A stretch of 33,216 nt of DNA from Rhodopirellula europaea 6C (GTDB taxonomy: Bacteria > Planctomycetota > Planctomycetia > Pirellulales > Pirellulaceae): positions 1 through 33,216 of the forward strand of contig NZ_ANMO01000176.1 in NCBI RefSeq assembly GCF_000338295.1, in the 5' to 3' direction. The notes beneath the pieces were generated by a model that was not told where the DNA came from, did no database searches, and saw only the letters and a program-made list of their open reading frames with translations. Shown one piece after another: positions 9,001 through 32,531 of this stretch. Numbering within the stretch: the first letter of the stretch is position 1; every line of letters starts with the position of its first letter. The position numbers and the translations under genes are program-made.

Positions 9001-10990
9001 ACCGAAACGTTGATGTCATCAGTGGAACCGATCCCACCCCCGGCCTGAATCGCCAGATTGGTCACCGTGATGTCGACCGTGGTATCGGCACTGGTATCCA
9101 CCACACCGCCTTGGGTGATCAACGAGAGAGTCGTGAATCCGGTTCCTGTCTCCGTTACAGCCGTAACCAGATCGATGTCACCGGTATTGATGGGTACCGT
9201 ATCGGCTCCCACTGTGGTCGTGGTCGTCGAACCAAGTCGAACGACCGCGCTCGTGGTAATCTCGTTCAAATCATCCTGTTCCAATCCGAGGATACCAGCG
9301 GCATCAGCATCGCCTAGGTGAATCTCGGTCGCAGCGGAGAGCGGTCGGATGGTGACATCCCCGGCAGACGCGGTCACCGATGCATTCAGGTCCAAAGCAT
9401 CCTGAATCAGCGTCACCTCACCGACCGTGGCTGCGGTTCCCGAAGTCGTAATCGCCGAGTCAACCGTCAGCGAAGTGGATTTGAGCACGACACTACCCGC
9501 GTTGGTGGTGATTCCTGAGGTCGTGTCGATAGCAGTCGACGGAATCGTCAGATCATCGATATCGTTAAACGTGAACGTATTTTCGGATCCAGTGACTTCC
9601 GCGACGAGGTTGTCCACATCATTCGCACCATCCAGCAAGACACTTCCACCCGCGACGATTTTCAGGTTCGTTTCGGTGATTGATCCAGGATTAGGCAATG
9701 CCGGGTCGTCGGTGATCGTCGAACCGGTCTCCAGAATGAGGGTGCTGGTTCCCACCGGCGCGATCGCTCCCTTAATCTCGATGGCTCCCGCATCTGCCTT
9801 ACCAATCTTCAACGAGTCGGCAGTGACCTGGTCCAATTCGGCGGCGGTGAGTTTGATATGGCTGCCGATCCCTGATCCAAGCGTGAATGTTTGGTTCGCC
9901 GCACTGTTGAGCAACTGAGTACGCCCGCTCGGCGACACCAACGATCCGCCCGAAAGCGGCGCAAGGCCACCCAGCGTCATGTCCGCCGCGGTGATGACCA
10001 AAGCGTTGTCGGTTGCATTGTTGGTGCTCACGTAGGTCGAACTGCCAACGATGGTGAAACTACCGCTGTCGTCGGCATCCGAATCAGCGGTAATGGTGAT
10101 GGCACCCGTGTCCGCCGTGACTTCAGCGGCTCCGTTAATCGCGACACCGCCGGTCGCGGTCAAAGCAATGGTGCCAGCACCCGTCGTGAAGACGGGCTGC
10201 GAAATCGTTACTGAGTTGTTCGTCGATTCAATTGAAATGTTTCCCCCGTCGGCGGATACCGATTCGGAAACACTCGTCGTGATGGCTTGCGTATTCGTGA
10301 TCACAACGCTGCCACCGGACGCATTGTTGTCGATCTTGTTCAAAGTGAGGCTATTAACCTCTTGTGCAATCTCAATTGCTCCCATGGACGCGTTTTCTGC
10401 GTCCACACTCAGGACGTTGGTCCGCACGTCAATGCCTTGGTCAGCAGTCAAGTTGAGATTACCGCCGCTGATCAGTCCAGTTGCACCGGACTCGGAGAGA
10501 ATTCTGCCTCCGGTGCTTTCCATGACGACCCCACCGGTTGCCGACGGGTTGATGGTGTCGACCGTGATATCGCCCGAAGCAAACAGATCCATCGTGATGC
10601 TTGCGACGGCGCTGGTTTCGATCGTCAGCGTTCCATCCGCATCCAAATCCAGATTTGTTGCCCCGACGATTTCATCGACCAACAAGTTACCCGGACCCGT
10701 ACTACCGGCCTGAATCGTGACAGCGTCGTTGCTGGCGGTCACCGATTGCAAAGTGACATCGCCACGTCCAATGATCGAGATCGCACTGTCCGCTTCGACA
10801 TCAGCCGTTGCTGTGATGGTATCCGCATCCATGTTCAATGCGCCATCGACCAACAGATCGCCGCTCACGTTGATCGTGTCGCCGGCTCCCAGGTTGATGT
10901 CCAAGTCGCCGGGCAGTTCAACGGCGTTGAGTGTCAAGACGTCAGTGCCGCTGCCACCATTAATCGTCAGGTTGCCCGAGGACGTTAACG
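1..10990 (-). repeat. Beta-helix / filamentous-haemagglutinin-like repeat array inside the giant protein
   Basis: About 3660 residues are built from short strands of the type 'GxVTIxGxI...IDTxxxxxxAGxVxI', typical of parallel beta-helix adhesins. Longer units are visible. The DNA string CCGTCGGTTTG recurs at 256, 601 and 6268, so two units lie exactly 345 nt (115 codons) apart and a third lies 5667 nt (1889 codons) away, all in frame. Stretches such as 'GDLQTDGG', 'TITGTVNGM' and 'GGSTPLDSIDIDG' recur near 30-750 and 5600-6330. A haemagglutinin-like segment 'IQAGGGIGSTDDINVSV' lies near 9050. Repeats are diverged, so this is old duplication rather than recent slippage. Confidence 0.85.
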
Positions 10991-13900
10991 TGAAGGTCAC
11001 GTCTTCGAAATCAGGGCTGGCGAGCGTGAACTCGTTCGGATTGGCGGTTTCCGACAACGTCGCAGTCGCATCGCCATCAGGCAGGTTGAAGACAACATCT
11101 GCTGCCGGTGTCGAATTCGTGACGGGCTCAAGGCCGGTGTAGCGAATCGTTCCGGAATCTGTGCCCGTAAGAGTGATGTCACCGGCAAAGTTATCCGAAG
11201 TTGTTGTGGCCGCGTCGTCAAAGTCATAGGTGACCGTAGTCACGCTGCCGCCGCTAATCGTCAGTGAATCACTATCGCCGCCGCTTTCGCCTCCGTCAAA
11301 GGTGAAGCCGGTAACCGATGCGGTGCCTGAAGTTGCGCCAGGGTGTACGGTAACGACATCGGAGCCATCACCACCGGTGACAACCAATTCACCCCCGGAA
11401 TAGCGACTGGCGATATCCTCGATGGATAGCGTGTCATCGCCGGCATCCATGTTGATCGTGATTGATTTGCCTGTTCCGTTGGGCGCTATAAAACTTGTCG
11501 TCTCAAAGGTCCCATTGAGACTCGAGAGTAGCAGATGCCCCGAAATCGCGGTGTCAATATCAAGGGACGCACTATCGGTATTGTTGGTTAGGTCGAAGAC
11601 GTACGAGTTGGTCGGCGATGAGTAAGTGACTGGTTCCAGGCCAGTAAATGTGATGGTCGAAGTCAGGCTGCCGTCGTCGAGCGTGATATCCCCCGAAAAC
11701 TCGTCTGCATTTGTCTCGAAGATGTTCGCATAGGCAAACGTTGCTGTCTCAAACGTTCCACCTTGGATCACTAGCGTGTCGTTGTCAGTTGCCCCGCCAT
11801 CACCACCGTTAAAGACGAAGTCGATGCCTGCGAGATTCGTCAAGTCTAAAGAAAGCGTGTCGTCTCCCTCGCCGGTGTCGAACACAATCGTATCGATTGA
11901 CCCCACTGGGATGGTGACAGCATGTCCGTTGCTGGAAGTCCCAAACGCCGAAACTAGACGGTTTACAGGATCGGTAATCGTAATATTTGTGCCGTCACTC
12001 GAAATTGCGAGGTCATCGGAAGCATCCGCAAATCCAGTGAGAGTGAGCGTGTCTCCACTTAAAGAAATTTCTGTATCAGGAGCCACATAGGACAACGCGT
12101 TTGCGATCAGCTGGGCACCGTCGGTCGATGGGTTGTAACCGTAGTAATACTGCCAGGAGTAAGCAAAGAAATTCAAACCCACAACAGAACCAACCTGTCC
12201 ACTCTGTTCCATCACCAGAGGACGATTGTCATTGGTTCTCGCAATAACATTAACACCACTTGCCGCACTGGATGAGTCAATTGCATTTACCTGAAGATTG
12301 GATACTGACTCCATGACTGGGTGGGCTGAATTGAAAGTCCCAAGCGATCGGGTGCCACTATAGAAATTTCCATTCTGGATAAATGGGCTGTACCCGTTCG
12401 ACGTCCAATCCCCGGTTACATGATAGGATTGAAATTGGTTGGGCTGATAGTAACGGTACCGTGTTGCCATCTCGACGACCCCGTACCCATCATCCACATA
12501 GTCCGCAAGCACATCTCCAATTGGGCCCGCTCGATACAGATAGTCCCAACCATTGACCAAAACCGCGTCGTATTGTTTGAGAAACGACAAAGACGGGACG
12601 AATGAGGAAAACCCTATCGTGACCACGTCCGCGTCATCAAATTGGCCTGTTGCCAGAATCGGATTGAGGATACCGACCTGATCAAGATTCCGACGGTAGT
12701 AGTTGCCATTGAGTAGAAGGAACTTCTTCTCCGTCGTTGACTCCTGCCCAACATCGATCGGAAAACTTTGTGGATCCGAAACATTTCCTAGCGTGTCGGT
12801 AACCGTGAAGTCGAAGCCGTCCGAAGACGCACCGACGTGGTCATACTTCAATAACCCATTATCCAGGTCAGCCTGCGTGAAGGTATCGCCGATGATGAGT
12901 GCAGTTTCTGAATTGTTGAGCGTGCCAGAGTCATCGAGATCGAGCCACAGTTGACCTGCCGGCGCAGTGGTCAGAGTAAAAGTGATATCAGAACCAGTTG
13001 TCGCAGTTCGGTCTGAAAATTGAAGGCGCGAATCATCAATTAGATTATTGCTGGAATTGGCAACAACGTTTAAACCCAGGTTCAACACCGCTTGAGGCGC
13101 TGAGGAATCAGTCGTGGTGAAAGTTCGACTCGCCGTAACTGTGTTGGCAGTCTCCGCCTGATCCGTTACCTCCACTTCGAGTGTGTAGGTTGCTTCATCG
13201 TCTAACGCTGAAAGATCCGCATCTGGATCAAGCTGCCACAAACCTCCTGCTTGCACCTGGGTGATTTCCGGCCCAAATACGACGGCGTCCGCTGCATCCT
13301 TGATTGTGATCATGACATCCTGCCCCACTTCTACACCGGTCGTACTGCCTTTTAGCACCACATCAAGGTCTTCCGAATCATCGACATCATCATTTATTTC
13401 GATTGCGTCGATGTTGATCGTGGCGGTGTCGACTTCGATGTTGAGGTCGGTCGGCAATGCAATGGCCGCATCATTGCCGGCGATGTCTCGGATGTAACTG
13501 GGATCGCCGACTGAGTTGTCGGGGATGACCAATCCGGTGACTTCCAGATCGTTCGCAATGGGAGTTGGAAGCGTGCTTTCATCCGTATCCTCGCTGGCCG
13601 ATTCGGCCACCGTATACGCGAACGAAAGAGTTGTTGAACCCGAACCGCCGGAATACGTCGCCGAGGCACCATTACTGAGCGTCAGCGTCGGCGCACCATC
13701 CGTTTCATCCACATAAACGGCTTCCGCGAACGTAACCTCAAACGTAATCGTTTCACCGATGCTGTAGTCCGAATCCCCAGCCGCTGCTTCAGCCACCGTT
13801 CCGTCGGCAATCGTCGTGTCAATCGTGACGTTGAGTGTTTCTGTGGTTGTGTTCCCGGCGGCGTCCGTCAGTTGAACAGTGATGATTTGGGGGCCATCGT

Positions 13901-16900
13901 CTGAGCCGTCCGTCGCGTAGCCACCGCTGAAGGTACGTTGCGTCGGCCCAGCTGCAGTGTCTGTCCCATCGGGCACAAAACCCTCCCCAGCCTTCCACTC
14001 GATTTCGATCGTCGAGCCGTTTTCTCCAAGGAAATCAATCGTCGGCGTGACATCACTAGTCAGATCATCCGAATTCGATTCGCCAAGATCAGAACTTGGT
14101 TGAAGATCGATAGCGCCGAGAGTCGGCGCTACAGTGTCAATCGTCACCGAGCCGGTCGTGGCGGCGGTAACTTCCATGCCTGGGTTTCCAGCGATGTCCG
14201 CGAAATTCACGCTGATGGAGGCGGCACCCTGCAGATCACCAGAGACGACGACCCACGTTGCGGTCCACTTCGTCTTGTCACTTGACCCCAATGTCTCGGC
14301 CACGGTCGCAGTTTTCTCCGCGATCATGACCGTCGGCTCATCAACGGGCTCAGCAAAGGTCAAATCGAGGGTGATCGTGTTTCCAATCGTTGCCTGAGCC
14401 GTGTCGGCGTTATCTGAATAGATCACAGCCGTGGAGAGCGTTGGAGAAACCGTGTCGACGTCTAAATTGACGCTGGCCTGCGTTGCGGGATTGCCCGCCG
14501 CATCCGACACATCGGCCGTTACGGCATAGGTCGTACCACTCGTGAGAGCTTGAAGGTGTGCCGCTGGCACTGAAACGCTCCACGCGTTACCACTTGCGTT
14601 GGCAGGATACGACTGGCTATTGAGCATTACCGTGACGGTTTGGCCATCCTCGGTATCGGTCGTCGTACCAGCGATCGTCAGTGGCGTATTGTTTTCGACG
14701 GCGTTGACCACATCGTCGGTCAAAATAGGCGTCGTGATCGCGATCGTCGGAGCGGACGTGTCCTTGGTCACAACAAACGTAGCCGCAGCCTGCCCGGTGT
14801 CTTGATTGCCAAGGTTGTCGGTGGCGACGACCGTGGCTGTGATTTGACCGTCGGCGAGTCCGCTCAGATCGACAGTGTGGTTGGTCGTCGTGATCGTGGC
14901 CGGCATCGCGATGTTCACATCGACTTTGGCACTGTTTTCGTCAGTGAACGTCACAACCGCGGTCGCGTCGGTGTCCAGACCGGTTACCGTGAATGGGAAC
15001 GCAGCTTGATTGGCAATTCGTACGTGCGTTGCGGTCGCCGCAATTTCAAGATCATTGGAGCTATCGGCATCAGCGTCGAAAGTAAAACTCTCGGCGGTTG
15101 ATAAGCCACTGACGTTCCCGGCGGCATCTGTCGCCGTCGCTGAAACAGTGAAGTCGTTGTGCCTGCTGGTCGCGGGCACAGAAAGTGTGGCAATCAAACT
15201 TGCGAGGGTTTCCGGGACGCTGTTTTGCAAAGCACTGGTGGCGATAGAAAATGCACCGCTTGTACCATCGGCCGTGGTGGTGCCGGTGTAGACAACGTCT
15301 GGATCCGCTGTGAGGTCTGTGACAGAAACGGTAACCGTCGCACCAGGCGCCGCCATTCCCGTGATCGCGATAAGTCCATTCACCTCATCAGCAGCCATGT
15401 CACCGATTGCATCAATCGAGGGTACTGCAGGAGCGGTCGTGTCGATGGTCACGGTGAAGTTTGGAGACGAAGCCGCACCTTCATTGCTGGCCGCATCCGT
15501 GACGGTCGCATTGAGTTGGTACGTCGTGCCGTCAGTCAGCGCCGGTGTGGTGATATCTACGTAGCCGTTGGTCGTGACATCCGTGGATGTCAGTGTTACA
15601 GCCGATCCCAGCGCCGTCGTGTCGTCATACAACTGCACGGTGTCGCCATCCACAGCGCCGGTTCCGCTCAGGCTCACGCGGACCACCAGTTCGGTATCGT
15701 TGGTGCTGTCGCCGCTGGTCAGCGGACCGGTCGACGGAGTCGCACCATCGTTCACCGATGTGATGCTCGGAGCACTCGGAGAAGTCGTGTCGACAGTCAA
15801 CGCGAACGTTGCTTCGCCTAGGCTGATATTTCCGGCGGTATCTTGCGTCCTGATTGAAAAACTATGCGGTCCTTCGGACAGGTCCGACGAAAGTTCATAG
15901 TCCCAAGTTGTACTGCCTACGGTCACTTCAAGTGGTGTTGATGCACCGTCGATATAGATCAGCAGTTTGTCGTTCGGACTTCCAACCGTCCCATAAAACC
16001 GTGGGCGAACATCGTTGGTGAATCCGCCGTCAGAAATTGCTGCTGTGACCGGATTCGCGTCGTCCTCAACGCTCGTGATCGTTGGATCGGTTGGAGCAAG
16101 CGTGTCGATGGTGAAGTTGATGGTTGATCCTGCTACCCCCGAGTTGCCGGCGATATCGGTGTAGGACCCTGCATTCACCTTCAGGAAGTTGTCGTGGATG
16201 TCCTCAATGTTGTCGACTGGAGTAAACGTGGCGGTGTAAACCTTGGGGTTACCACTGTTGACAACAAAATCGGTCAGCGTTCCGCTTGGGCTGCCACCAC
16301 TAAGTGCATCAACGATCAAATCCGTGGCATCGACCCCGCCTGGTTCTTCGCTAAATGTGACGGTCACCAAGGCCGTCTCGCCCTTTTTTAGGGCCGTGTC
16401 AGACATGGAGATGTTGACCGTCGGGGCGGTCGTGTCGATTTCAATATCTTGTTCCGTCAGAGCAACGGCGTCTCCATCCTCCAGAACACCGCCATCTGAC
16501 GACACAATGTTCTGCTCGTAACGCGCGAAAATCGCACCGGCCGCATATGTCGCATCCGTTGCCGGTTGATTCCCAGCAGCAGGATCCCAGTCCGTTGCCT
16601 GAATCGTGGTGGAACCGCTTCCGACGCCCGCCGTCGCAGAACCTAAAACCTGGCCGTAAGCGGTGTCGAGGTCAGAAACCGTATCGCTACTGTCCACGTC
16701 GCTGTAGGACCCATTCACCAGGTCAATCTGTTCGATGCCCGTGCCCCCCGTGTAGAAGATTTGAAAGATCGGGGTGGTATTACTTGTAATTCCATCGGTC
16801 GACGTTACACCCGTATCGTCGGTAGAATTCTGCAACAGCTGAACGCTGGTAATCTTGAACGGAACGTCGACGGTGTATTCTTCATCGGTTGTCGGCGTAG

Positions 16901-18215
16901 AGTCCAACAGGTTGCCGGCGAGATCACCGATGTCCAAGTTGGGCAAATTAAAATCCAAGCCGACGGTTCCGTCGCCAGCTACATTGTCGACGGTTACCTG
17001 ATAGGTGCTATCATCAGAGTCCCCGGCATCGTTCACAGTGACAGTTGGGTTGACCGACGCGGTTCCACTGGTTGCAACCGTGAAGTCGGAAGCGTCGACG
17101 TTTTGAACGTCTTCGTTGAAATCAACGCTGAATGAAACGCTCGTCGCATTGGATGGGTTGGCGTCGTCCCTCGTTATCGAAACGGTTGGAGGTACGTTGT
17201 CCATAACGCCGGTCGTGATCTGTAAGTTATCAAACTCAACACCGCCACTTCCGCCAAAGAAAATATGAGCATTTGAGCTTGTAAAACCAGTGACCTCCGA
17301 AACGGTTATGGCTTTCTCAAAGACCCCGTCATCGTTACCGTCGTAAGAAAAGGTGGCTTCGCTTTCACTATCGTCATACTGAATTCGAAACTCGTGGGTC
17401 CCCACTGCGAGATTCGCAAGATTATTGGTTGTGTCACCTGTTTCGAAGGTCTCCCCCGAGTCATATAGGCCGACGGAAATCTGCCCGTCAGCATGCAAGC
17501 GAAAAGTCATCGCCGGACCACCCGGCTCGGCGGCTGTTCCGCCTGGAACCCCGTCGCCAACTCCGAAATATGCAATGTTATCACCAGTCGTTCGGGTGAC
17601 TTGGATGTCAGCGGTGAAGTCGCCGGTCGCGTAACCACCGTCCGTTGTGCGCAGGTAGTCGCGGTCGCTGTCAGCGATTCCATCGAAAAGTACGTTATTG
17701 CTTGCATTCTCATCGTGGAATTGATAGTTCGCATCTCCACTCGTTCCATCTTCCAATCCGGCCGGGATTCCGGTGGCTCCATCGAAATTGATGCTCAGGT
17801 CGCCCGCCAACAGTTCCCGCCGCTCAAGTGCTTCAACGGAAACCTTCGACTGAGTGGGGCTGGCAAAACGTGGCGAGCGTCGCTTGACTTTGCCCTTGCG
17901 TTCGAAGCTGATGCCAAAGGGCAGCATCGCCGTGAAGGCGACGGCGGGTCGCTTTTCGATTCGGACAAAGAACGGCGGGTTCGTGATGAACTTCCAAATC
18001 GCTGCCATGCCCAATCCGATTTTGCTGATCCAGCTGGCTTTGAAAGCGTTCTTATAGCGCTCGATTCGGGCGGCTTGCTTGGCGATCCAGTGTGCCTTGC
18101 GATCGTTGGCTTTTTGCTCCCAGCGGTTGAAACGCTCCCGCATCTTCTGCATGCGAGCGACGGAGGTGTTTTGAGTGCGGCCGGCAAAGTTGTGATGGCT
18201 GGGTCGAATCGACAT
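1..18215 (-). CDS. Giant LEPR-XLL surface protein, beta-strand/beta-helix repeat adhesin (partial, C-terminus off window)
   Basis: The frame stays open from the ATG at 18215 to base 3, giving 6071 codons with no stop that I saw. Order by residue: basic N-terminal module 1-125; LERRELL motif 130-136; LamG/concanavalin-like domain about 138-337; roughly eleven bacterial Ig-like repeats to about 1695 (many beginning 'TTAPT' or 'TVSPT'); a cadherin/CSPG-like repeat to about 1810; a GATase/flavodoxin-like globular domain about 1818-2039; two 'TGLEPVT' units about 2130-2378; then a beta-helix array from about 2408 to the edge. The composition (Thr, Asp, Gly, Val, Ala; no visible Cys clusters) fits a secreted adhesin or matrix protein. 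The start is supported by the near-identical N-terminus of the gene at 32033. The ribosome site is weak (GAGAA about 7 nt upstream). No enzymatic role can be assigned. The C-terminal anchor is outside the window. Confidence 0.93.
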   Translation of the reverse strand, partial: MSIRPSHHNFAGRTQNTSVARMQKMRERFNRWEQKANDRKAHWIAKQAARIERYKNAFKASWISKIGLGMAAIWKFITNPPFFVRIEKRPAVAFTAMLPFGISFERKGKVKRRSPRFASPTQSKVSVEALERRELLAGDLSINFDGATGIPAGLEDGTSGDANYQFHDENASNNVLFDGIADSDRDYLRTTDGGYATGDFTADIQVTRTTGDNIAYFGVGDGVPGGTAAEPGGPAMTFRLHADGQISVGLYDSGETFETGDTTNNLANLAVGTHEFRIQYDDSESEATFSYDGNDDGVFEKAITVSEVTGFTSSNAHIFFGGSGGVEFDNLQITTGVMDNVPPTVSITRDDANPSNATSVSFSVDFNEDVQNVDASDFTVATSGTASVNPTVTVNDAGDSDDSTYQVTVDNVAGDGTVGLDFNLPNLDIGDLAGNLLDSTPTTDEEYTVDVPFKITSVQLLQNSTDDTGVTSTDGITSNTTPIFQIFYTGGTGIEQIDLVNGSYSDVDSSDTVSDLDTAYGQVLGSATAGVGSGSTTIQATDWDPAAGNQPATDATYAAGAIFARYEQNIVSSDGGVLEDGDAVALTEQDIEIDTTAPTVNISMSDTALKKGETALVTVTFSEEPGGVDATDLIVDALSGGSPSGTLTDFVVNSGNPKVYTATFTPVDNIEDIHDNFLKVNAGSYTDIAGNSGVAGSTINFTIDTLAPTDPTITSVEDDANPVTAAISDGGFTNDVRPRFYGTVGSPNDKLLIYIDGASTPLEVTVGSTTWDYELSSDLSEGPHSFSIRTQDTAGNISLGEATFALTVDTTSPSAPSITSVNDGATPSTGPLTSGDSTNDTELVVRVSLSGTGAVDGDTVQLYDDTTALGSAVTLTSTDVTTNGYVDITTPALTDGTTYQLNATVTDAASNEGAASSPNFTVTIDTTAPAVPSIDAIGDMAADEVNGLIAITGMAAPGATVTVSVTDLTADPDVVYTGTTTADGTSGAFSIATSALQNSVPETLASLIATLSVPATSRHNDFTVSATATDAAGNVSGLSTAESFTFDADADSSNDLEIAATATHVRIANQAAFPFTVTGLDTDATAVVTFTDENSAKVDVNIAMPATITTTNHTVDLSGLADGQITATVVATDNLGNQDTGQAAATFVVTKDTSAPTIAITTPILTDDVVNAVENNTPLTIAGTTTDTEDGQTVTVMLNSQSYPANASGNAWSVSVPAAHLQALTSGTTYAVTADVSDAAGNPATQASVNLDVDTVSPTLSTAVIYSDNADTAQATIGNTITLDLTFAEPVDEPTVMIAEKTATVAETLGSSDKTKWTATWVVVSGDLQGAASISVNFADIAGNPGMEVTAATTGSVTIDTVAPTLGAIDLQPSSDLGESNSDDLTSDVTPTIDFLGENGSTIEIEWKAGEGFVPDGTDTAAGPTQRTFSGGYATDGSDDGPQIITVQLTDAAGNTTTETLNVTIDTTIADGTVAEAAAGDSDYSIGETITFEVTFAEAVYVDETDGAPTLTLSNGASATYSGGSGSTTLSFAYTVAESASEDTDESTLPTPIANDLEVTGLVIPDNSVGDPSYIRDIAGNDAAIALPTDLNIEVDTATINIDAIEINDDVDDSEDLDVVLKGSTTGVEVGQDVMITIKDAADAVVFGPEITQVQAGGLWQLDPDADLSALDDEATYTLEVEVTDQAETANTVTASRTFTTTDSSAPQAVLNLGLNVVANSSNNLIDDSRLQFSDRTATTGSDITFTLTTAPAGQLWLDLDDSGTLNNSETALIIGDTFTQADLDNGLLKYDHVGASSDGFDFTVTDTLGNVSDPQSFPIDVGQESTTEKKFLLLNGNYYRRNLDQVGILNPILATGQFDDADVVTIGFSSFVPSLSFLKQYDAVLVNGWDYLYRAGPIGDVLADYVDDGYGVVEMATRYRYYQPNQFQSYHVTGDWTSNGYSPFIQNGNFYSGTRSLGTFNSAHPVMESVSNLQVNAIDSSSAASGVNVIARTNDNRPLVMEQSGQVGSVVGLNFFAYSWQYYYGYNPSTDGAQLIANALSYVAPDTEISLSGDTLTLTGFADASDDLAISSDGTNITITDPVNRLVSAFGTSSNGHAVTIPVGSIDTIVFDTGEGDDTLSLDLTNLAGIDFVFNGGDGGATDNDTLVIQGGTFETATFAYANIFETNADEFSGDITLDDGSLTSTITFTGLEPVTYSSPTNSYVFDLTNNTDSASLDIDTAISGHLLLSSLNGTFETTSFIAPNGTGKSITINMDAGDDTLSIEDIASRYSGGELVVTGGDGSDVVTVHPGATSGTASVTGFTFDGGESGGDSDSLTISGGSVTTVTYDFDDAATTTSDNFAGDITLTGTDSGTIRYTGLEPVTNSTPAADVVFNLPDGDATATLSETANPNEFTLASPDFEDVTFTLTSSGNLTINGGSGTDVLTLNAVELPGDLDINLGAGDTINVSGDLLVDGALNMDADTITATADVEADSAISIIGRGDVTLQSVTASNDAVTIQAGSTGPGNLLVDEIVGATNLDLDADGTLTIETSAVASITMDLFASGDITVDTINPSATGGVVMESTGGRILSESGATGLISGGNLNLTADQGIDVRTNVLSVDAENASMGAIEIAQEVNSLTLNKIDNNASGGSVVITNTQAITTSVSESVSADGGNISIESTNNSVTISQPVFTTGAGTIALTATGGVAINGAAEVTADTGAITITADSDADDSGSFTIVGSSTYVSTNNATDNALVITAADMTLGGLAPLSGGSLVSPSGRTQLLNSAANQTFTLGSGIGSHIKLTAAELDQVTADSLKIGKADAGAIEIKGAIAPVGTSTLILETGSTITDDPALPNPGSITETNLKIVAGGSVLLDGANDVDNLVAEVTGSENTFTFNDIDDLTIPSTAIDTTSGITTNAGSVVLKSTSLTVDSAITTSGTAATVGEVTLIQDALDLNASVTASAGDVTIRPLSAATEIHLGDADAAGILGLEQDDLNEITTSAVVRLGSTTTTTVGADTVPINTGDIDLVTAVTETGTGFTTLSLITQGGVVDTSADTTVDITVTNLAIQAGGGIGSTDDINVSVTNLAAHNDQTGATLGGNININNLGDLTIAAAPGIDGVIGVDNDFAGGSVTINVDVDGGEPGNLTINAPIDAEDGPITIQADNNIALNANVSSGTGAGDIAITADTNSDAAVVVDGAITMVDGAVVDAGSGTIAMNAYGNVTLGRVVTTNNTPMAVLIDSSNGAISEVGDTGGADIVATGSDAVVTLNAATGIGTMAAPIDTSIAKLVVTNSASGDVYIEEATGLKINGIDQDGGLVNIKTLNGFLDVVQGTGISTTTGSVTLTAEKTTAPSAPIVINDPIQSDSGAVVITAADSVNFGAPNTVSTDANVFVTATAQGIFMSNGALIDAGSGLIDLTANGNITLGGLLTTNTTPAGLNKTDPSMSTAAIVVNTATGSILDAGDTHLEVSTVGGSPQGGAVLIAEAGSIGATGNPLEMNVGSIGAKSLTEIVLDSDGDILIDCLISGSDITVTAGGMINDLQNDALADLDAGGTISLEATTGIGGNPGTTATVADAAGRLELAAGSTLIASTTDAGTANGNILVAGLGDLTLQSVTTANGAVDITAAGTITATLVETSNTNSDDNDITLVATAGGDIEVVALDAGADGDITLTAAGAITEDGMPGTAAAGDVLTATAGGAISLDTNVNKITATTNAAGDIDIDESTGVELTNIATNDGTVNVVATTGDVTIVSVTSAGTDKDVTIEATVGSILDQDDNTDVDITATGEIILTAGANIHGTGTGTDGDGNRLEVAAGSVVTANSTTAGNIRLTSPGAITLKNIDATSGDVDVTTTGGDILIGAIDASGTVTLNSSAAINEADDDLTADITAATVSLEAVGDIGGSATPTTTDTEGRLEIAGGSVSANSTGTGDIVLRGTADITFTSVTTNDGLVDVDSTGNQITVAGTGISAVGGGIKAVAAGIKLSADLQTDGDAIDLNGPVVIDGARLIDTESGDNDDAGLVLITGTINGMDNIGNTDILTIDATANTNAAGAVTITGVVGGSTPLDSIDIDGNAIDLQSAITVDDGGIEVNGSGINIGGDLTTEGSNVDLTGPVTLTNENATTTIDTATTSATGGVVTIDGTINGTNLGAETLVIDTSGTSNKANVFLKQDVGATQRLGGLTVTADTLEITGDILTDSTGASADGLIDFSGVTMLDLTDNQTIQIDSDATGGSSDAGQIVLTGAANLDIDEPTVDFVIDARADGTGVSKDVTLNDVTVKSLNVAGDKVTFEGLVTLKGKDLAGNSLRVDAKDVEFKDGARIVVDGDMAGDTGNVLIAGKVGDNGTLTLAATGADALPVIDVTDAEAAGGTVTIDSNFTVVELCDDIATAGGAILIASPVELCADVTLDTTGNSTAAGANITISNTITDDATSGPHSLDLIGGTGGDVNLTGDITIGRLDIQSADIVDLPSVSTDGEGASGGIDIGSTAAVNRIDLNGATLDSGANHPNVAGVISLNSADIDLSISVTLDATTGGTTDGAITVGDSANPSAVDATTAGMESLTIQSSDGALTVHSDLGGNTRLGSVAVNSSGGTISWNGDIATQGGAVDFTGVTGAIDVTGNDGAQWTIDTNDGASGNGGNIDFGMNATITAGDVALVFDATASATDADVILPASIAAASVDVDADQITAGNIVTTGGNIDLNATATTGTAIFFNGSTIDTTDGGTEATAGEIILTSAGGNLLLNNSGGTVSFLTDATTTDANITIAIPVEAMATEPLTLDAGDADVAINATVGAASPIGLLTIDADNIDFNANVDAAGIAATGQSSIEIGTTSAVVLDINNVQSSFDSPFIDADAGSTIIDSTGGKDTAVLYRPLNDATAFNIGDDAGTATDRVTDAALAAVANSIGQLAIGYAGTQSGKITIDGNSPQTRSGYPSLTGIVLNTSLVIQAVDADVEVTDSIISDIEGNSITINGSGAAGVTTIMNNSTFITDNGGVITIDDSVTLADGVTLTLDSDGNNAGGGAAISVTGDIQGDGGSNENLVVHSGGGSITLGDAATDKIGDTGSRFGTITLDGTDAVVINSTVVAASITIGGSDNPTAVTFNETLDLDNGSAADVLDITVAAAGTVTFAAAADLTTANGGNVVVNSAGAGGSVTINDTAASSWSIDGSVNIDGNFGNVDLGEDITTNGGAISISSPTTLTKDIALDTTASGTATAGANISLAAVTASGAASAETLTIDAGTDGDISVTGQIGASRLGLVTITNANDVVFDDTANNPAQVTGLTVTESSTLTATEQIDTTADISIVADDASSPDLATTTSVTLAGGVELGGANLAIQAASDVIFSAPIISTPDAGTETVTVSGITAATEIYLGDAGGGLDISEASLAQIQSTVTEIVIGEAMNQTGKITVGDGADDNGTLTVLTALTLEAAGASGAGIDVQASITTAGDFTVNGDGAGDGFSVNATSVTITTAGGDATINDTVTFATDGNALAINTTGTSDGAININGSVEANNTGAAAENLTLTAGTGDVTLGGSGDTFGATTTADDRLGTINIVSANDVTVNASIVAQVFDQDAGVLGTPGPGSTTTFKAAIDLDKGSSGDVLRLDNVPNVTFEDAAAVTTGNGGNVFLDGDDTGDLIIGTGGMTLDGSFTEQQYNSVQLNGTITANGINISSKLELSTDLVLTAATGDISVGNICGDEDDKDKIYDVTITATTGSVSVGQIGIDADSDDINEVTITSGSTSADTISLGGNIFTGEDDNTGDVSLNGAVVLGVDIVIDTTDTEDMAPAPAATGNAGAVSFSSTIDGTTGGEESLTINANDTTADGDVTIAGAVGGTTPLEFVTIDAASVEVDAVATTGAIDVTGSSIKLSGDLQTDGGTVDLTGPLTVNGTDITIDTELDDNSDAGAVTITGTVNGMTMDVDGLIIDTTTGATFSAGDVTIDGIVGGGALDLDKLVISGAAIDLTSAVTVHDGGIAVTGDTISLGGDLQTDGGNVELAGNVTLAKEDAMTTIDTGDTATTAGNVTVTGTIGGSEAGDEALVIDASGTTTSGNVQVTGAIGTTLLPLASLDIDGAII
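11080..11822 (-). repeat. Two tandem 'TGLEPVT' units with Gly-Asp-rich loops
   Basis: Two homologous segments of about 80 residues lie about 514 nt apart (11822-11585 and 11308-11080). Each begins with a Gly/Asp-rich loop ('FNGGDGGATDNDTLVI', 'FDGGESGGDSDSLTI'), passes through 'SGDITL'/'AGDITL', and contains the identical string TGLEPVT followed by 'VFDL' or 'VFNL'. Between and after them are further 'GGDGSDVV' and 'GGSGTDVL' turns that resemble calcium-binding RTX loops without the strict nonapeptide. I do not recognise a named family. The unit sits between the globular domain and the beta-helix array. Confidence 0.7.
12098..12770 (-). other. Embedded globular domain, GATase/flavodoxin-like, in the giant protein
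   Basis: This stretch of about 220 residues breaks the repetitive pattern. It is rich in Tyr, Phe, Asn and Trp, and opens with 'KKFLLLNGNYYRRNLDQ', followed by 'QYDAVLVNGWDYLY', 'LADYVDDGYGVVEM', 'AHPVMESV' and 'GSVVGLNFFAYSWQYYYGY'. The order of a beta strand ending in an open turn, a helix, 'D(A/V)VLV', a helix and 'GG/GYGVVEM' resembles class I glutamine-amidotransferase-like or ThuA-like folds. No catalytic Cys is visible (the stretch has none), so enzymatic activity is doubtful and a carbohydrate-binding or structural role is possible. Fold assignment is inference from pattern only. Confidence 0.55.
13120..17204 (-). repeat. Array of about eleven bacterial Ig-like domains
   Basis: Tandem units of about 100-130 residues begin with variants of 'DTTAPTxxI' (PPTVSI, TAPTVNI, LAPTDPTI, TSPSAPSI, TAPAVPSI, SAPTIAI, VSPTLST, VAPTLGA) and carry 'DxAGN' near their ends (AGNLL, AGNSGV, AGNISL, AGNVSG, AGNPATQ, AGNPGM, AGNTTTE, AGNDA). 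This is the signature of Big-type Ig-like domains of bacterial adhesins, which usually act as stalks that project a binding domain from the cell. Sequence identity between units is low, so they are unlikely to recombine readily. Confidence 0.85.
17838..18215 (-). other. Conserved basic N-terminal module preceding LEPR-XLL motif (copy 1)
   Basis: Residues 1-125 of the giant protein: an amphipathic, strongly basic helix-like part (about 21-58, rich in Arg/Lys/Glu, e.g. 'RMQKMRERFNRWEQK'), a short hydrophobic part with two Trp (about 61-77, 'SWISKIGLGMAAIWKFI'), then 'TNPPFFVRIEKRP' and 'FTAMLPFGISF', a Lys/Arg-rich linker and LERRELLAGD. By hand alignment about 80 of the first 100 residues equal those of the other giant protein. 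It is not a standard Sec signal peptide, because the basic region is very long and the hydrophobic core short. Confidence 0.85.
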
Positions 18216-18630
18216 TTGTTATTCTCGAAAAACTGCAAAATCAAATGAAAGCGGGGATAAAGCTCGGAGAAAATGTTCCCAAGCCGGACCATTTTGTGAA
18301 CGCGGTGGCACGTCCAAAGAAAAGAAGCGGCGGCGTCAATCGACACTGCGGCGGGCGAACCTAGCCCGAACACTCAGCGGGCAGAGGCGGACGAAAAACC
18401 TGCCATAGAGCAAGCGAAAGACGTCGTCGCAAAGCCCCAAACAGCCCCACGCTTGACCGCCCATTCGTCTGTCGATCCATCATCTCGACCGCCACACCGC
18501 ACTCCTGCGAAGTCGCCGTCGATCGCACACACCCTGTCATGAAGTCATCTCAAACGAGGAAGGTACGAACAGCCTTTCTGTGGCCGCTCAGTTCCATTCG
18601 CCCCCAATGGAGCACCTGAACACTTGATGC
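18216..18630 (-). promoter_or_regulatory. Long 5' leader of the giant gene at 18215
   Basis: About 415 nt lie between the conserved block and the start codon and hold no credible gene. Hairpins are visible: TCCATT/AATGGA with a 7-nt loop at 18593-18611, and CGGGC/GCCCG with a 7-nt loop at 18352-18368. The last 40 nt resemble the matching region before the other giant gene ('CATTTGA' then 'GAGAAT' shortly before ATG). Ribosome site: GAGAA about 7 nt upstream of ATG, weak. That this is transcribed leader is inferred from the position of the conserved block. Confidence 0.5.
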
Positions 18631-18719
18631 GAACAGGAGAGCAATCCCCCCTTCTACGGGGTAACACCTGGGGTATTGAGGAAAGATCCTAACTGGGGGT
18701 TTTAGGCGGAACAAGCATT
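18631..18719 (-). promoter_or_regulatory. Conserved leader/promoter block, copy 1
   Basis: This block matches 32445-32531. The core at 18684-18706 is identical over 23 nt and, read on the minus strand, contains the inverted repeat CCTAA-N9-TTAGG with a C-run in the loop. Next to it are AATGCTTGTT (upstream side, identical in both copies) and the hairpin ACCCC-N6-GGGG (18648-18661 for the CCCC/GGGG part; the loop differs between copies). The core begins 469 nt before the ATG here and 463 nt in the other copy. It could be a regulator-binding site or a folded RNA element. Confidence 0.7.
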
Positions 18720-19151
18720 GAATCGATGAAAAAAGAAAGAACTCTTCCAAGGCAAAATAAGAACCAATTAAACACCAACGAATTTGAACTAAGAATCAAT
18801 TTGACTCAGCAAAACTGGGCGTTTCCAACCAATCGACTGGTCAAATTCCTTTCCAAAATCTTGTTTTTCTTGAGTACTTTCAAGTGGCAATCTGACTCAG
18901 CCCGCTCGCTGCAGAGGGGACCAATGGAACCAAAAGTGCTTGCAAGTGGTCCCCCGAACGACGATTGGCTCAGTCAGGGCTTCCTATCAGTCCGTTCCAA
19001 CCGGGTGGTGCCAAAATTGAACAAACGCACATAAATAGCCCCGGCCAAAATGGACCGTTATGTCTCCCAAGAAGGACGCGTCCTGCAAGAACGCCCCTCT
19101 TCAACTCGCCGCACGCTCTTCTTCACCCAGTTCTCAGAATTAGAGAGAGTT
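18720..19151. other. Intergenic region between the PEP-CTERM gene cluster and the downstream giant gene
   Basis: No convincing gene on either strand. The part 18720-18900 is AT-rich and probably carries the promoter for the giant gene. At 18861-18877 a string reading GTACTCAAGAAAAACAAG on the minus strand has a counterpart at 32673-32689 at nearly the same distance from the conserved block (about 165 nt). No clear intrinsic terminator follows the stop codon at 19152. Short open frames here have no start signals or recognisable products. Confidence 0.5.
19073..19084. promoter_or_regulatory. 12-bp perfect palindrome AGGACGCGTCCT
   Basis: The sequence AGGACGCGTCCT is its own reverse complement. 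It lies about 70 bp past the stop codon of the protease gene and about 860 bp before the next giant gene. With no loop it is a poor RNA hairpin, so a dimeric DNA-binding site is the more natural reading. A chance occurrence is possible. Confidence 0.25.
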
Positions 19152-21431: not shown

Positions 21432-24400
21432 CTAGAAATCCAGGGAATCCAAAGCTGCATCCACGGACGATGCTTCCAAAGTGGATGGATCTGACATTTC
21501 ACCCAGTCCATCGACCGAATCATCATCATCCTCGAAGGCCATCAATGACATCATCGGAGGGGATGGCAAAGTCGCGGTCTGCGGCGGAATCAGGCCAAAT
21601 GCGAACTGCGCGTCTGCAGTGTCAACTTGACCCGAGCCGTCAAGGTCCTTCCTCACATCGTAAGCGTTGCCGGTTAGGAAGGACGCAAAAGAAGTTGAAC
21701 CATCAGTGAAGGAGAACCTGGAACTGTAAACCGTCGAGGCATCATTGATATTTACCTCTTCGTTTGCATTCGCATCACCGGGAAGCACGTTGAACTGGAA
21801 CACGAAGTCTCCACCCTCGCTGTCGTTACCAGACGGCAGGGCACTGAGGTATTCACCATCCAGATCGATTGTTCCACCCAATCCGGCGGCGACCGTGTCG
21901 AAAACCGTTAAGGTGACTCGATCGTTAACGATAAAATCGCTTAACGTCAACGTTGCGATGTGCGAGACAGGATCATAGTCAACAGATGTGATCGACGGGG
22001 TATCCACCCCCTGAAGCCCTGCAAATGCAAAATCACTTGCAGAGAGCGTGCTGGTGACTTGGGCGTTAAATTCAACGTGAATTTGATTCAAGTTGATCCA
22101 GGGCAGTGTGTCGAACTGATTCGCCGGATTGATGGAATAACCCTGGCGACCATCCGGTGAAGATCCGTCAACGAAATCGTTGAAGGCATCCGCCCAAATT
22201 GTACTACCAACCTTGATCGCGTTGATCTTCAAATTGTCGTTGTCGACAATCAAGGCAAGCGCTTCGTCACTGAAGTTAGCACCTGGCCCCGACACACCAG
22301 GGCTATAAGTCGAACTTAGACTGACTGCGAAGCCTTCATTTCCTTCAACAAGGGCGTCATCGGTAATGTTGAAGGAGACGTTTTTGAATTCATCACCCTC
22401 TTCAAAGGTGACGGTTTTGCCACCAGCAAAATCATAGTCAGCACCTTCCGTCGCACCAAAGAGATCCAGGGTGTTCAGCGTCACCTCAATGGTGACCCCC
22501 GTGGGAATGGGAGAACTCACCGAAATGGTGAACATTCCGGTCCCATCGTCTTCACTCACTGTCAGATCGTCGACGGTGAACGTCAAGATTGGCTCGACGG
22601 TCACTTCGATCGTCTCAGTATCGACCACGCTGTCCTTGTCGGTCACCGTTACCGTGATCGTGTAAGTTCCTGGGTCGGCATAGGTGTGACTGAGAGCGAA
22701 CTCCTTCGGATCACCGCTGCCGATCGAACCACTGTCCATTGCTCCGGCATCGTCGTAGTCGACGGTGTAACCCCAGTCCGCATCAGCACCCGGATCGGTG
22801 AAGGTCACTGTACGAGTGAACGTGTCGCCTTGCACGATCGACGCAGCCATGCCGACGGACAAATCGGGTGCAACATCTTCGACGGTGATGTTAAAGGAGG
22901 CCGTTGACGAATTAATGCCGTCGCTTACTCCTATAACGATTGGCTCTACCGTATCGCCATCTGTTGGAGTGTAGGTGTACTGATCACCGTTAACTCCAGT
23001 GATCATTCCATCACCAGTTACAACGCTGTAAGTCAGCGTATCGCCATCGGGATCGAAACCAGCCAACGTGATTGTTACTGGTGAGCCTTCCTCAACGATC
23101 TGATCAGCAACCGTCAGAGTCGGCGTGTCGTCAACACCGTCGACGGTAATCGTCACCGTGGTTGTGCTCGTCAGTGCCCCATCACTGATGGTGTACTCGA
23201 ACGTGACGTCCTCGCTTTCGGTTTCATCGAGATCATCAAAATCTGAACCTGGATCGTAGGTAAACGTTCCATCGGCAGCCACGGTGACAGTACCGCCAGG
23301 ACCGCCGCCGGTTCGAGTCAGCGAAACCGGCATCCCAACGTCACCGCTCACACCATTAACTTCAGTCACCGTCAATGTTGGCGAGTCGACGTCGGTGTCA
23401 TTTGCCAACACGCTGTCATCGGTCGTGTCACCCATGGTGGTGTTGCCATCGGCGTCGTCGGCAGTGAGAGTCGAATCGGCATCGACCGAGTAACTGTCCG
23501 CGGCAGCTTCCGGAGCATCGTTGACCGGTGTGACGTTGATCGCGAAGATCCGCTCCATGCTTTCGCCGCCGTTACCATCAACGACCTTGAACGAGAACGA
23601 ATCGTTGCCGACGTAGTCTTTATTCGGCATGTAGGTGAAGGCACCCGTTGTCGGATCGGTGATTGTCAGCGTGCCGTTGCTGACATCGACAACAACTTGG
23701 AACTCCAGGTTGGGAACGTCGGAAGTATCGACATCACCGCCGGTGAGAGCATCTGTCAGCAGCGTGTCTTCCGGTGTTGTTGCACTGTCGTTGGCGGCGG
23801 TCGGAGCATCGTTGACGCCGGTGACCGTGACCACAACGTCACCATTGGTCGTGCTGTTGCCGTCCGAGACGGTGTAGCTGAACGTTTCGGTGGCATCTTC
23901 GGTGACCGCCAAGTACTCAAACTGACCATTCGGATCGAACGTCAACGTATCGTCACCATTCAAAGTAACGGTACCGTTGCCACTGGTCAAAACAATTGGA
24001 ACCCCGACTGTCGGTGTCTGCCCGTCAATTGCAGTGATACTTAGCGTATCCCCTTCGGGATCAGTGTCGTTGCCGAGAACATTGATTGGGCCGCTCGCCG
24101 TGTCTTCATCCGTCGTCGCAGTGTCGTCGACGACCACCGGCGAATCATCGACACCGTTGACGGTAATCGTCACCGTCGCCGTATTGGAATTGGCGAAGGT
24201 GTCAGTCGCTTCGTAGGTGAACTCGACGATCACAAACTCACCGCTATCCAAGGCGTCGAAATTGCCTTGCTGATCGTAGGTGAACGAACCGTCCGCATTG
24301 AGCGTGACCTCTCCGGCAGCATCGCCACCAAGCGGCGAAGCCCCAGCGGCCGAGGTGACAACCGTAATGGTTCCCGGCGAAGCGACCGTCAGCGGGTCAA

Positions 24401-27400
24401 GATCGACATCGGTGTCGTTGCCAAGCACACCCGGTGCTGCGACAGATAGCGTGCCGTCTTCATCGACTGAGTAGGCATCGTCGTCCGCTTCCGGTGTGTC
24501 TTGCTGGGCGATCACCGTGATCGTCACATCAACGGGTGCCGACAGGGCACCGTTATCATCCTCCGCTTGATACTGGAAGGTATCGGTGCCGTTGAAGTCG
24601 GCGTTCGGAGTGTACGTAAACGTGCCGTCGGAGTTGAACGTCACGGCACCGTTGCTGGGCGATGAGAACTGCGTCGCCGAGACGACTGTTCCGTCAATAT
24701 CCGAATCATTCACCAGAACGGTCGATCCATTCAGAACGGCGTCTTCGTTGACCGTATACGAATCATCAGCAACGGCCACAGGTGCGTCGTTGACACCCGT
24801 AATATCGACGTCGACATTGGCGGTCGAGGAAGGCAATGTTCCGTCGCTGACCGTGTAGGTGAAGCTGTCACTACCGGAGGGCTGAATATCATCGTCATCC
24901 AGGAAATCAAACGCACCACTCGGGTCATACGTCAATGTACCATCAAGTTCCAGGGTGACCGTCGCGCCACTAGCCAGCGTGACGGTGTCCTCAGGAGCCA
25001 CGGACATTCCGTCGATCGAAACGACCGCGACATCTTCGCCGTCCGGATCGAAATCGTTGTCGACCACATCGATCGAAACGCTGCTGTCTTCGTCAGTCGA
25101 AGCCGTATCGTCTACGGCAACCGGAGCGTCATCGACACCCGTCACCACGATGCTGACCGTAGCCGGGGCAATGGAGTCATCCAATCCGTCGTTGGCGAGA
25201 TAGGTGAATGTTACCGTCACCGTTTCGCCAGGAAGCAATGCGTCCAGAGACCCTTCTGGGTCGTAGTCGAAACTTCCGTCTGCGTTAATGACGACCGAAC
25301 CGGCCGATGCTCCGTCAAGGATGCTGGGGGTTAGACCATCACTATCACCTGCTGCGGTAGCAGAAACGGTGCCAGGCGATGACACTTCCAGCGTGTCACC
25401 GACATCAATATCGGTGTCATTGTCCAACACACCCGGTGCAGCAACCGACAACGTGCCGTCAGCCTGAGCCGCATAATCACCCGGGGTATCAGGGTCGTCG
25501 TTGGCGACCGGTGCGTCGTTGGTACCGACAACGGTGAATTTGACCGTTCCGGTATCGCTGAGCGAACCATCAGTGACGGTGAAATTGACAATGACTTCCG
25601 CAGAAACTCCTTCGGCCAAGCTTTGGTAGATTGCAACCGATGGATCTAGACTGAAGTCTCCGCTCCCCTGGTCGTACGTGATCCCCGCTTCTCCGAGCGT
25701 GGCGGGCACGCCGGCAACCGTCGCGTTATCAAAGGTAAAGGAGCTCGTCGTTAGTGTGTCGTCGACATCAGTGGCCAAATCACTGATTTGAGCTTCAACG
25801 CCACCTAGCGTTCCGTCAAAGACGGCGTCATCTTCGTCGATCGAAGCTCCGGTGTCGAAGTCTTCTGCAACTGGTGCGTCGTTGACAGCTTCGACCGAGA
25901 TCGTCAGCATCAATTGAGTCGTTTCCTCGTTACCGATTGTGGGGGCGGGATCCCCGGTGTCGGTGACATCGGCCACGATGAGAATATCGCCGAAGAAGTC
26001 GGGAGCCGTGGTGAACGACCACATGCCGTCCGTACCCGTGGTCAATACTCCTTCACTGGCCGTGATCGGTACTCCCCCCACCGTTGCCGAGCTAAGCGTG
26101 AAGACCAGCGATGCATCGGGGGTCTCAATGTCGTCCGCCAACGTCTGCAAGTTGATGCTCAATGGTGTCATTTGGTCTTCGGTCATCGGGAAGACCTGAC
26201 CGTTGGTAACCGTCGGTGCGGTGTTGACTGGATCGATCGTGATCCCAACCGATGTGGTGGTCGTCGCAGAAGCCGGAGGAGCTGTCACACCTAAATCATC
26301 AACGGTGATCACCAACGAGTCGGTGCCATTGACATTTTCATTTGGAGTGTAGGTCACCGATGCCAAGGCGGCGTTTAGCTCGGCACGAGTGCCAGAGAAC
26401 GTGAGCGTTCCATCGCTGCCATCGATGTCCGTGCCCGTGATCGCAGTTGCCACAGCAATTGAACCGCTCGTGACGCTGAGCGTCACTTCCATCGCATCAG
26501 GACCTTCACCCAGGGCGATGTCCGCGTCATCCACCACAATCGGACCGATTCCGATGGAGGTAGGTACCGCAGCAGTATTTTCATCAAGCGTTACGTCTGC
26601 AGGAACAACGACGGTAGGACTGTCGTTGACCGCAGTCACGTTGATCACGACCGATGCGGCGTCTGACTTTTTAAAGTCGTTCTCAAGCATGCCCGAGCCA
26701 CTGTTGTAGGTCTGCCCGTTGTCGGTGACCTTGTAAGTGAACGTGACTGGACCGTTGAAGTTGGTGGTCGGTGTGAACCGGATCACCTGGGTTCCCATCA
26801 CCGTCAACACATTGATTGTGCCGAGTGCAGGCGGAATCGTCGTGACGTCGGTGATTGTCAACGCCTGGAAGTCCTCATTGGCCGGTCCGGCCGTGGTGCC
26901 GGCGGCGTTGAGCACATCAATGTCGACGAACGATGTGTCTTCGTCGACCGTCACCGTCACCGGACCGGCGGTCGGCTTGTCGTTAACACGACGGTAGTTG
27001 ATCGTCACCGTCGCCGTGTTTGAGCTTTCCGGAGTCGTTCCATCGTCGACGATCGTGTAGGTGAAGGAATCGCTGCCGAAGTATTCACCGTCGCTTGGCG
27101 TGTAGGTGAACGAACCGTCGGTGTCGATGATAACGCTACCGCCATCGTCAGTCGCAACCGTCGTCGGGCCGGTTACCGCTGTTCCTTGAACTGTGGCAAC
27201 AGTGATCGTGTCCGACTCATCATCGAAACCGATCTCTTCGTCGTTGTCGTTGCCGAGCACCGAACCGGTCACATCGGCATCCCCTTCGGTTGCCTCGAAG
27301 TCATCATCGACCGCGACAGGTGCATCGTTGACCGGGTCGACCGTCAACGCGATCGTCGCATCGTCGAATTTCGTGGGCGTAGGCGAATTACCAAGGTCGC

Positions 27401-32033: not shown

Positions 32034-32444
32034 GGAAATTCTCTAGAAAGCTAAGTCAAATGAATTCGGGAATGAGGCCTTGGGGAAACAAACTTCTGGT
32101 CAAGGCTTGATTGGCTTCAGCGACGTTTTCGTCGCGGGGTGCGGCATGGCCCAGAGGGGCCAGCCAGGAACGTTTGATCACGTCCCAATCAAAGGATGCG
32201 GAGGGCGAAATACTTGCCAACGTGATTGGCAAACCCGCCCTCGTGTGAGCGTGGAAAACAGGATCAGTGACGCACAAAAATCGCCCTGTTTCGCCTCACT
32301 AATCGCACTCTGGCGATTTCGTGGAGTCGCGGTTGCTTGAATGCACCCAACCATTGCGTCTTCTCAATCGAGGTAATTTTGCCGCCAAAAAGCGGCTTGA
32401 AATCAATTCGCTCGAACCCCAGCCCCCCCTTTATTTCACTAGAG
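32034..32444 (-). promoter_or_regulatory. Long structured 5' leader of the 3533-residue giant gene
   Basis: About 410 nt without a credible gene. Four perfect stems are visible: GCGACG/CGTCGC with a 4-nt loop at 32120-32135; TGGCCC/GGGCCA with a 4-nt loop at 32147-32162; TTGCCAA/TTGGCAA with a 5-nt loop at 32214-32232; and GCCGC/GCGGC with a 6-nt loop at 32381-32396. The stretch next to the start (CATTTGACTTAG...GAGAATTTCC on the minus strand) resembles that of the other giant gene. A structured leader RNA is likely but unproven; a promoter inside it cannot be excluded. Confidence 0.5.
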
Positions 32445-32531
32445 GAACAGCATTCGCGCACCCCGTCTCAGGGGTACCAGCTCGAGTATGAGGGGAGATC
32501 CTAACTGGGGGTTTTAGGGGAAACAAGCATT
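32445..32531 (-). promoter_or_regulatory. Conserved leader/promoter block, copy 2
   Basis: Counterpart of 18631-18719. The identical 23-nt core lies at 32496-32518 with the inverted repeat CCTAA-N9-TTAGG on the minus strand. AATGCTTGTT precedes it, and the hairpin ACCCC-N6-GGGGT (32460-32475) follows with a loop different from copy 1 but the same 6-nt loop length. The core begins 463 nt upstream of the ATG. The rest of the leader is far less similar, so this block appears to be under selection. Confidence 0.7.

Follow-up and report, generated by a model that had tools for sequence, protein, structure and literature searches.

A promoter-like block and a conserved leader open reading frame upstream of giant planctomycete genes with a common N-terminal module

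The giant genes and the repeated block

The window, by which we mean the whole stretch of 33,216 nucleotides that was analysed, carries two giant genes on its minus strand, each with one copy of a repeated block several hundred nucleotides before its start codon. The genes and the parts of the two blocks are as follows:

3..18215, minus strand: giant gene 1, cut off by the window edge after 6071 codons
18648..18662, minus strand: copy 1 hairpin (ACCCC/GGGG), near the predicted 5' end of the transcript; weak evidence of function, with a fold z score of 0.07
18684..18717, minus strand: copy 1 promoter-like element, TGCTTG-N20-TAGGATCT, which includes the 23-nt core; defined on sequence, boxes invariant in eight of eight leaders
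21432..32033, minus strand: giant gene 2, 3533 codons
32460..32475, minus strand: copy 2 hairpin (ACCCC/GGGGT); weak evidence of function, with a fold z score of -0.97
32496..32529, minus strand: copy 2 promoter-like element, TGCTTG-N20-TAGGATCT, defined in the same way, boxes likewise invariant in all eight leaders

Much of what the preliminary description had reported about the repeat was reproduced. Both blocks are present on the minus strand and have the same 23-nt core, CCTAAAACCCCCAGTTAGGATCT, which occupies 18684-18706 in copy 1 and 32496-32518 in copy 2. For a window of such length, chance would produce about 1.6e-5 shared 23-mers, and a 201-nt query searched against the whole own genome retrieved the second copy at E = 6.2e-14. 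The hairpins at 18648-18662 and 32460-32475 keep their stem and loop size, with GTAGAA in one loop and TGAGAC in the other. Apart from these two copies, the own genome contains no core at three or fewer mismatches. The distances from the core to the ATG, recomputed from the coordinates, are 469 and 463 nt as had been reported; the spacing thus holds within the window but is not strictly kept in the relatives, among which TAGGAT lies 470-476 nt from the ATG in four leaders, 504 and 508 nt in two, and 599 and 608 nt in another two.

The two giant genes had been called unrelated, which does not apply to their starts. Their N-terminal ~110 residues are 77% identical, and only the bodies carry different domains. 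The shared module reads MSIRPSHHNFAGRTQNTS... and is followed by LEQRQLLAGDL or LERRELLAGDL. Behind the module, giant gene 1 encodes Big_13 and Cadherin_3 domains (domain scan of 4995 residues), and giant gene 2 encodes a beta-helix, Cadherin_4/Big_9 repeats, Cadherin_5, PKD and Calx-beta. As to membership in LEPR-XLL or Planc_extracel, the Planc_extracel profile scored 20.3 bits in giant gene 2 and 12.9 bits in giant gene 1, below the curated cut-off of 25.5, and the LEPR-8K profile scored 12.5 bits in giant gene 2, below the cut-off of 17.

Between the giant genes, Pfam assigns the product of a gene at 19152-20033 (minus strand) a leishmanolysin/M8-like metallopeptidase domain at E 2.8e-6, a score above the cut-off. 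The adjoining ORFs at 20006-20677 and 20671-21318, on the same strand, have PEP-CTERM-like C-termini that scored 18.8 and 19.6 bits at a Pfam cut-off of 20.7.

Distribution of the block and its promoter-like boxes

The survey covered 60 relatives, and the genus, which we take to be Rhodopirellula in the GTDB sense, is represented by 13 genomes including our own. A search with the N-terminal module gave eight strong copies (E 2e-63 or better) in six genomes, all of one genus, with two copies each in G000 and G002. Distant copies were found in G025 (44%) and G023 (37%), and weaker matches, at E 3e-4 to 9e-4, in G008, G001, G009 and G048, those in G001 and G009 involving the LEPR part only. The preliminary description had proposed to test for an association of the block with genes encoding the same N-terminal module, and we found the element upstream of all eight close module copies, in 6 of the 13 genomes of the genus. 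A BLAST search of the 60 relatives with an 85-nt piece of the element returned seven matches at E <1e-5 (the window's two included), every one upstream of a module copy; the eighth leader, that of G001, was found by reading upstream of the G001 module, not by BLAST. The next match, at E 0.0017 with 23 nt aligned, lies in G011, a genome without a module match, and the remaining ones in the list are mostly at chance level. In the leaders that precede the distant G025 and G023 modules, neither exact boxes nor an ORF with the motif described below was found. In a wider collection of genome contigs, which may omit near relatives, a degenerate core pattern had no matches and the N-terminal module gave 15 pattern-matching stretches, none of which was confirmed. 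The idea of a regulatory element shared by giant surface genes stands in so far as the element is common to eight of eight same-module genes; the wider regulon that was part of it is not supported, with the core occurring twice in the own genome. These data support the repeated block as a regulatory leader that goes with this N-terminal module and is shared among the giant genes starting with it.

In both G000 and G002 the module genes form a tandem pair on one strand, and copy 1 clusters with the second G002 leader, G002b, with a support of 0.94; an old duplication is therefore the likely origin of the pairs. The same tandem arrangement and grouping would fit a functionless similarity, the block being simply the 5' flank inherited when the gene was duplicated. 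This we consider extremely improbable, as the boxes and the peptide motif have been kept where the neighbouring leader sequence has diverged, and the pattern of synonymous and nonsynonymous change given below disfavours it as well.

Three strings are invariant over the eight leaders, TGCTTG, CCCAG and TAGGATCT, and TGCTTG stands exactly 20 nt from TAGGATC in every leader. This layout puts 17 nt between TTG and TAGGAT, the spacing of a sigma-70-type promoter. The consensus boxes of such promoters are TTGACA and TATAAT; TAGGAT agrees with the latter at four of six positions and TTGTTC/TTGTTT with the former at three of six. The exact pattern TGCTTG-N20-TAGGATC has 21 matches in the 60 genomes, eight of them in these leaders. 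Seven of the 13 others lie in a gap, at most 300 nt upstream of a co-oriented ORF, in comparison with 34 of 650 random positions from the same loci. The TAG inside TAGGAT favours non-coding DNA on its own, which counts against the promoter reading. Scanning spacers of 15-25 nt gave 68 non-family matches, distributed as 4, 3, 8, 5, 5, 13, 7, 7, 5, 7 and 4; the peak of 13 falls on 20 nt (P 0.008), a spacing set by the giant-gene leaders, yet the 13 matches at 20 nt had been seen beforehand. At up to two mismatches the boxes are not enriched in the own genome (135 matches and 141 in the reversed control), and TTGACA-N12-22-TAGGAT has 15 matches in the 13 genomes, none of them at a spacing of 17. 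By the same rule on upstream gaps, two of the eight one-mismatch sites of the own genome precede a co-oriented ORF; the site L122 is also followed by an ORF start, but the rule discounts it since a longer frame runs antisense there. Weighing these results, we consider TGCTTG-N20-TAGGATCT quite probably a promoter; as to the sigma-70 type, they point both ways.

The alignment shows a further conserved block, GGAACTTTTT, upstream of TGCTTG in copy 2, G005, G004, G002a and G009. Between it and TGCTTG, the same five leaders have GTTCT/GATTCT-like and ATTT-rich stretches. The GGAACTTTTT block may act as an activator site or as a second promoter. At the other end of the leader, most of the aligned sequences have retained a TTCATTTGACTT-like stretch, 20-40 nt ahead of the giant ATG.

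RNA structure and the leader ORF

The block had been read as a structured regulatory RNA or an operator, built on the inverted repeat CCTAA-N9-TTAGG and capable of two alternative folds. As such a reading would have it, the two window copies do not differ in the core and most relatives conserve it, but the arms of the repeat change without compensation. The repeat is fully Watson–Crick in three of the eight leaders: pair 14-28 is broken in two, pair 16-26 is broken in one and a G–U wobble in three, and the C-run of the core is interrupted in G001. Folds of copy 1, copy 2, G005, G004, G002a and G009 contain a CCCC/GGGG stem, and in the two other leaders the hairpin is absent or altered, G001 having nothing comparable and G002b folding differently. 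Across the leaders the named structure is paired in 80% of cells as against 78% after shuffling, and no covariation was detected in the palindrome and hairpin of the eight leaders, the score being reached by 331 of 500 shuffles. A search of Rfam gave no match, either at the gathering cut-off on the whole window or in E-value mode on 18200-19200, and folding the first 60 nt of the eight leaders gave z scores from -1.39 to 1.12 with no consistent signal. With the repeat broken, the hairpin not universal and the covariation at the level of shuffles, the palindrome and the alternative fold are both unsupported, and neither an Rfam match nor covarying helices place the block among structured cis-regulatory RNAs. 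We regard the structured RNA or operator as very improbable.

The main feature of the leader is a probable leader peptide, which the preliminary description missed. An ORF of 58-64 codons is present in six of the eight leaders (copy 1, copy 2, G005, G004, G002a and G009), beginning with an ATG 149-153 nt downstream of TAGGAT and leaving 143-175 nt between its stop and the giant ATG. Its positions in the window are as follows:

18361..18540, minus strand: copy 1 leader ORF, 59 residues plus stop, ending in WQVFRPPLPAECSG
18379..18405, minus strand: copy 1 codons for WQVFRPPLP
32178..32354, minus strand: copy 2 leader ORF, 58 residues plus stop, ending in WQVFRPPHPLIGT
32193..32219, minus strand: copy 2 codons for WQVFRPPHP

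All six ORFs encode WQVFRPPxP followed by a tail of 4-10 residues. In the alignment of the six peptides 15 of 65 columns are invariant, seven of them being WQVFRPP, and Met1, Cys4, Thr8 and Ala9 are also the same in every peptide. Between G005 and G009, which are two species, 9.0 of the 9.0 synonymous sites in the 13 codons around the motif have changed and 0 of the 30 nonsynonymous ones. Over the nine motif codons of the six leaders, the variable columns number 0, 1 and 8 on codon positions 1, 2 and 3, respectively (P 3.5e-5); part of the six leaders come from close relatives, and the sample thus amounts to about four independent lineages. Synonymous change around the motif is saturated and nonsynonymous change nil, and together with the codon-position counts this amounts to peptide-level selection. 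It is less strong when the ORF is taken as a whole, with copy 1 and copy 2 differing by 0.62 at synonymous and 0.48 at nonsynonymous sites. The substitution pattern strongly indicates that the leader ORF is translated, and as a conserved short upstream ORF under such selection it is a candidate regulatory leader peptide.

The motif is confined to these leaders in the searches made. A peptide profile run on 117 genomes gave the six leader ORFs at E <1e-26 and the others among the matches listed at E >1e-3; in most genomes scoring covered 55 of the first-look candidates, a depth at which a diverged homologue could be missed. Codons for WQVFRPP with at most one mismatch occur at 27 places in the 60 genomes, six exact ones, all in these leaders, and 21 with one mismatch. 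Reading the open frames of all 27 gave no clear leader-like copy among the 21. One of these one-mismatch places, L065, has WQVFQPP in an open stretch of 24 residues. Among the top-ranked literature matches, a set that leaves subscription titles largely uncovered, we found no account of a WQVFRPP leader peptide.

Two leaders deviate. In G002b (L033, the second leader of G002:C1, minus strand) the ORF start MIGC is kept and WQVFRPP is lost, and no such ORF was seen in the leader of G001. Two of the eight giant genes therefore do without the motif of the leader ORF. A similar stretch, IFRPA, stands in another frame of G002b, as it would after a frameshift. The data point to WQVFRPP having been lost in G002b after the duplication, or not kept in frame. 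A second frame in the leader, ending in ...PEFI just before giant gene 2, was dropped from consideration as it is broken by a 1-nt deletion in G004.

Selection on the peptide is also what one would see if the small ORF were the first gene of an operon and encoded a stable small protein acting in trans, for example in the export or anchoring of the giant protein. The invariance of Met1, Cys4, Thr8 and Ala9 in six of six and the exclusive pairing of the ORF with module genes would suit such a protein. Most of the conservation, however, sits close to the C-terminus, with a divergent middle and a tail of anywhere between 4 and 10 residues, and the copy 1 and copy 2 peptides match no family in Pfam or NCBIfam; a protein working in trans is unlikely, though we give it some weight. 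Alternatively, translation of the ORF may set or raise the expression of the giant gene by ribosome loading or reinitiation, with no arrest involved. The ORF is close upstream of the giant gene, and such a role has been proposed for bacterial leader genes (PMC4833913). If the role did not depend on the sequence, WQVFRPP would not have survived where synonymous change is saturated, and reinitiation would have to bridge a rather long gap, of 143-175 nt; this second alternative is decidedly improbable.

Possible control of the giant genes

The sequence between the leader ORF and the giant gene has a biased composition:

18216..18360, minus strand: copy 1 gap, 145 nt; C 0.28, G 0.22
32034..32177, minus strand: copy 2 gap, 144 nt; C 0.33, G 0.20

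In all six ORF-bearing leaders the gap has more C (0.28-0.34) than G (0.20-0.23), and their 5' UTR has more G than C. Folding the gap of seven leaders gave z scores from -2.12 to 0.16, six of the seven not beyond their shuffles and copy 2 alone below -2.

The best explanation that we have for the locus is a promoter followed by an arrest-type leader peptide that gates the giant gene, like SecM, ApdA or CruR, and we rate its chances as roughly even. The repeated block would supply the promoter and the 5' end of a leader transcript some 460 nt long, transcription presumably beginning just after TAGGATCT. About 150 nt past this start, the leader would encode the peptide of 58-64 residues that ends in WQVFRPPxP, and the nascent peptide may slow or arrest its own ribosome around Arg-Pro-Pro. 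The position of that ribosome would then decide whether RNA polymerase and ribosomes enter the giant gene of 10-25 kb, most likely by covering the C-rich, G-poor gap of 143-175 nt, which could load Rho; alternatively, the arrested ribosome might change the folding of the gap. The strongly conserved ending of the peptide suggests that the cell checks its translation before the giant gene. Counting against the model are the two leaders that lack the motif, the weaker selection over the full ORF, the mostly unremarkable folding of the gap, a core that differs from RAPP, and the fact that neither an export signal nor a sensor was recognised.

The arrangement resembles several known systems. ApcA, ApdA and ApdP, as well as SecM, also have a small ORF upstream of the regulated gene; its product likewise carries an Arg-Pro-Pro-like core close to the C-terminus, preceded by conserved residues (PMC12992588). 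The core here is R-P-P-(H/L)-P, not RAPP, RGPP or RAGP, and arrest is in our case a prediction; RPPHP or RPPLP is found in six of six peptides in place of a C-terminal RAPP, RGPP, RAPG or RAGP, and we therefore do not file the leader peptide as a RAPP-type member. With the Ala of RAP replaced by Pro, arrest is still possible in part in ApdA and ApdP but not in ApcA, and RxPP, where x is Gly, Ala, Ser or Pro, is among the arrest-inducing sequences of Escherichia coli (PMC12992588). In contrast to the RAPP-type peptides and SecM, the leader peptide has no known export signal, and the gene that follows it is giant and of surface type rather than an export component.

CruR (DUF2946) of Bordetella is similar in its upstream ORF with a C-terminal arrest motif, in the following gap with C > G and in a downstream gene that lies beyond the Sec pathway; there, arrest at RAPP keeps Rho off the C > G region and is so coupled to Rho termination (PMC9426467). 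The six leader peptides differ from it in containing neither CXXC nor RAPP, copper and Rho are features of the CruR system of which Rho is proposed for the giant genes as well, and the two window peptides have no Pfam match up to E 1 that would make them CruR/DUF2946 members. The RPP core, given that R-P-P is partly permissive in ApdA and ApdP, the precedent of CruR and the excess of C over G in the gap together lead us to propose arrest-controlled Rho attenuation. Within the Planctomycetota, the uA_LPPP arrest peptides also come from an upstream ORF with a proline-rich C-terminal motif (PMC10987492). They belong to the orders Phycisphaerales, UBA1161 and WQYP01 and are named upstream-of-secA ORFs; most have a predicted signal sequence, and their motif differs from WQVFRPPxP (PMC10987492).

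More tentatively than the gating itself, and at somewhat less than even chances, the peptides may constitute a new class of nascent-chain arrest with the core WQVFRPPxP and without a recognised export signal, a checkpoint before surface-protein genes of 10-25 kb. A leader peptide that is confined to one genus, ends like an arrest peptide and lies outside the protein-export genes would enlarge the range of genes under nascent-peptide control, and the WQVFRPPxP codons offer precise targets for tests. If true, Rhodopirellula would incur the cost of a giant protein only under the right cue, as read by the ribosome. Giant genes are a frequent feature of planctomycetes (PMC5177795), and on how they are controlled we found, within the accessible literature, a single remark, a guess about the gene RB11766 (PMC2754498).

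That gene bears directly on the leader of G004, a genome that we take to be R. baltica SH1. RB11769, annotated as "probable aggregation factor core protein MAFp3", is given as 24,522 bp at position 6,335,006 (PMC1274298). The module in G004 starts at 6,335,006, and by this position RB11766/RB11769 and the G004 leader and module are the same locus. RB11766, of 129 aa on the plus strand, is repressed in heat, cold and high salinity, and it was suggested that it might regulate the giant gene RB11769 (PMC2754498). The region L037:1-3100 of G004 contains 34 ORFs of at least 40 aa, a single one of which has 129 aa, at 2356-2745 on the plus strand. It runs across the boxes and the hairpin into the beginning of the leader ORF and is read in a different frame from the latter. 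On its length and place this ORF is probably RB11766; its computed pI is 9.55 and the one printed for RB11766 is 10.4, a mismatch that leaves the identity likely, not proven. In the same register relative to TAGGAT, six of the other seven leaders contain stops and G002b is open, and the 129-aa ORF looks poorly conserved and spurious. The conserved leader ORF is a different ORF from this one, in another frame. This suggests that RB11766, the proposed regulator of its giant neighbour, is a misreading of the WQVFRPPxP leader, and since the 129-aa ORF overlaps the leader, the array signal of RB11766 may report the leader.
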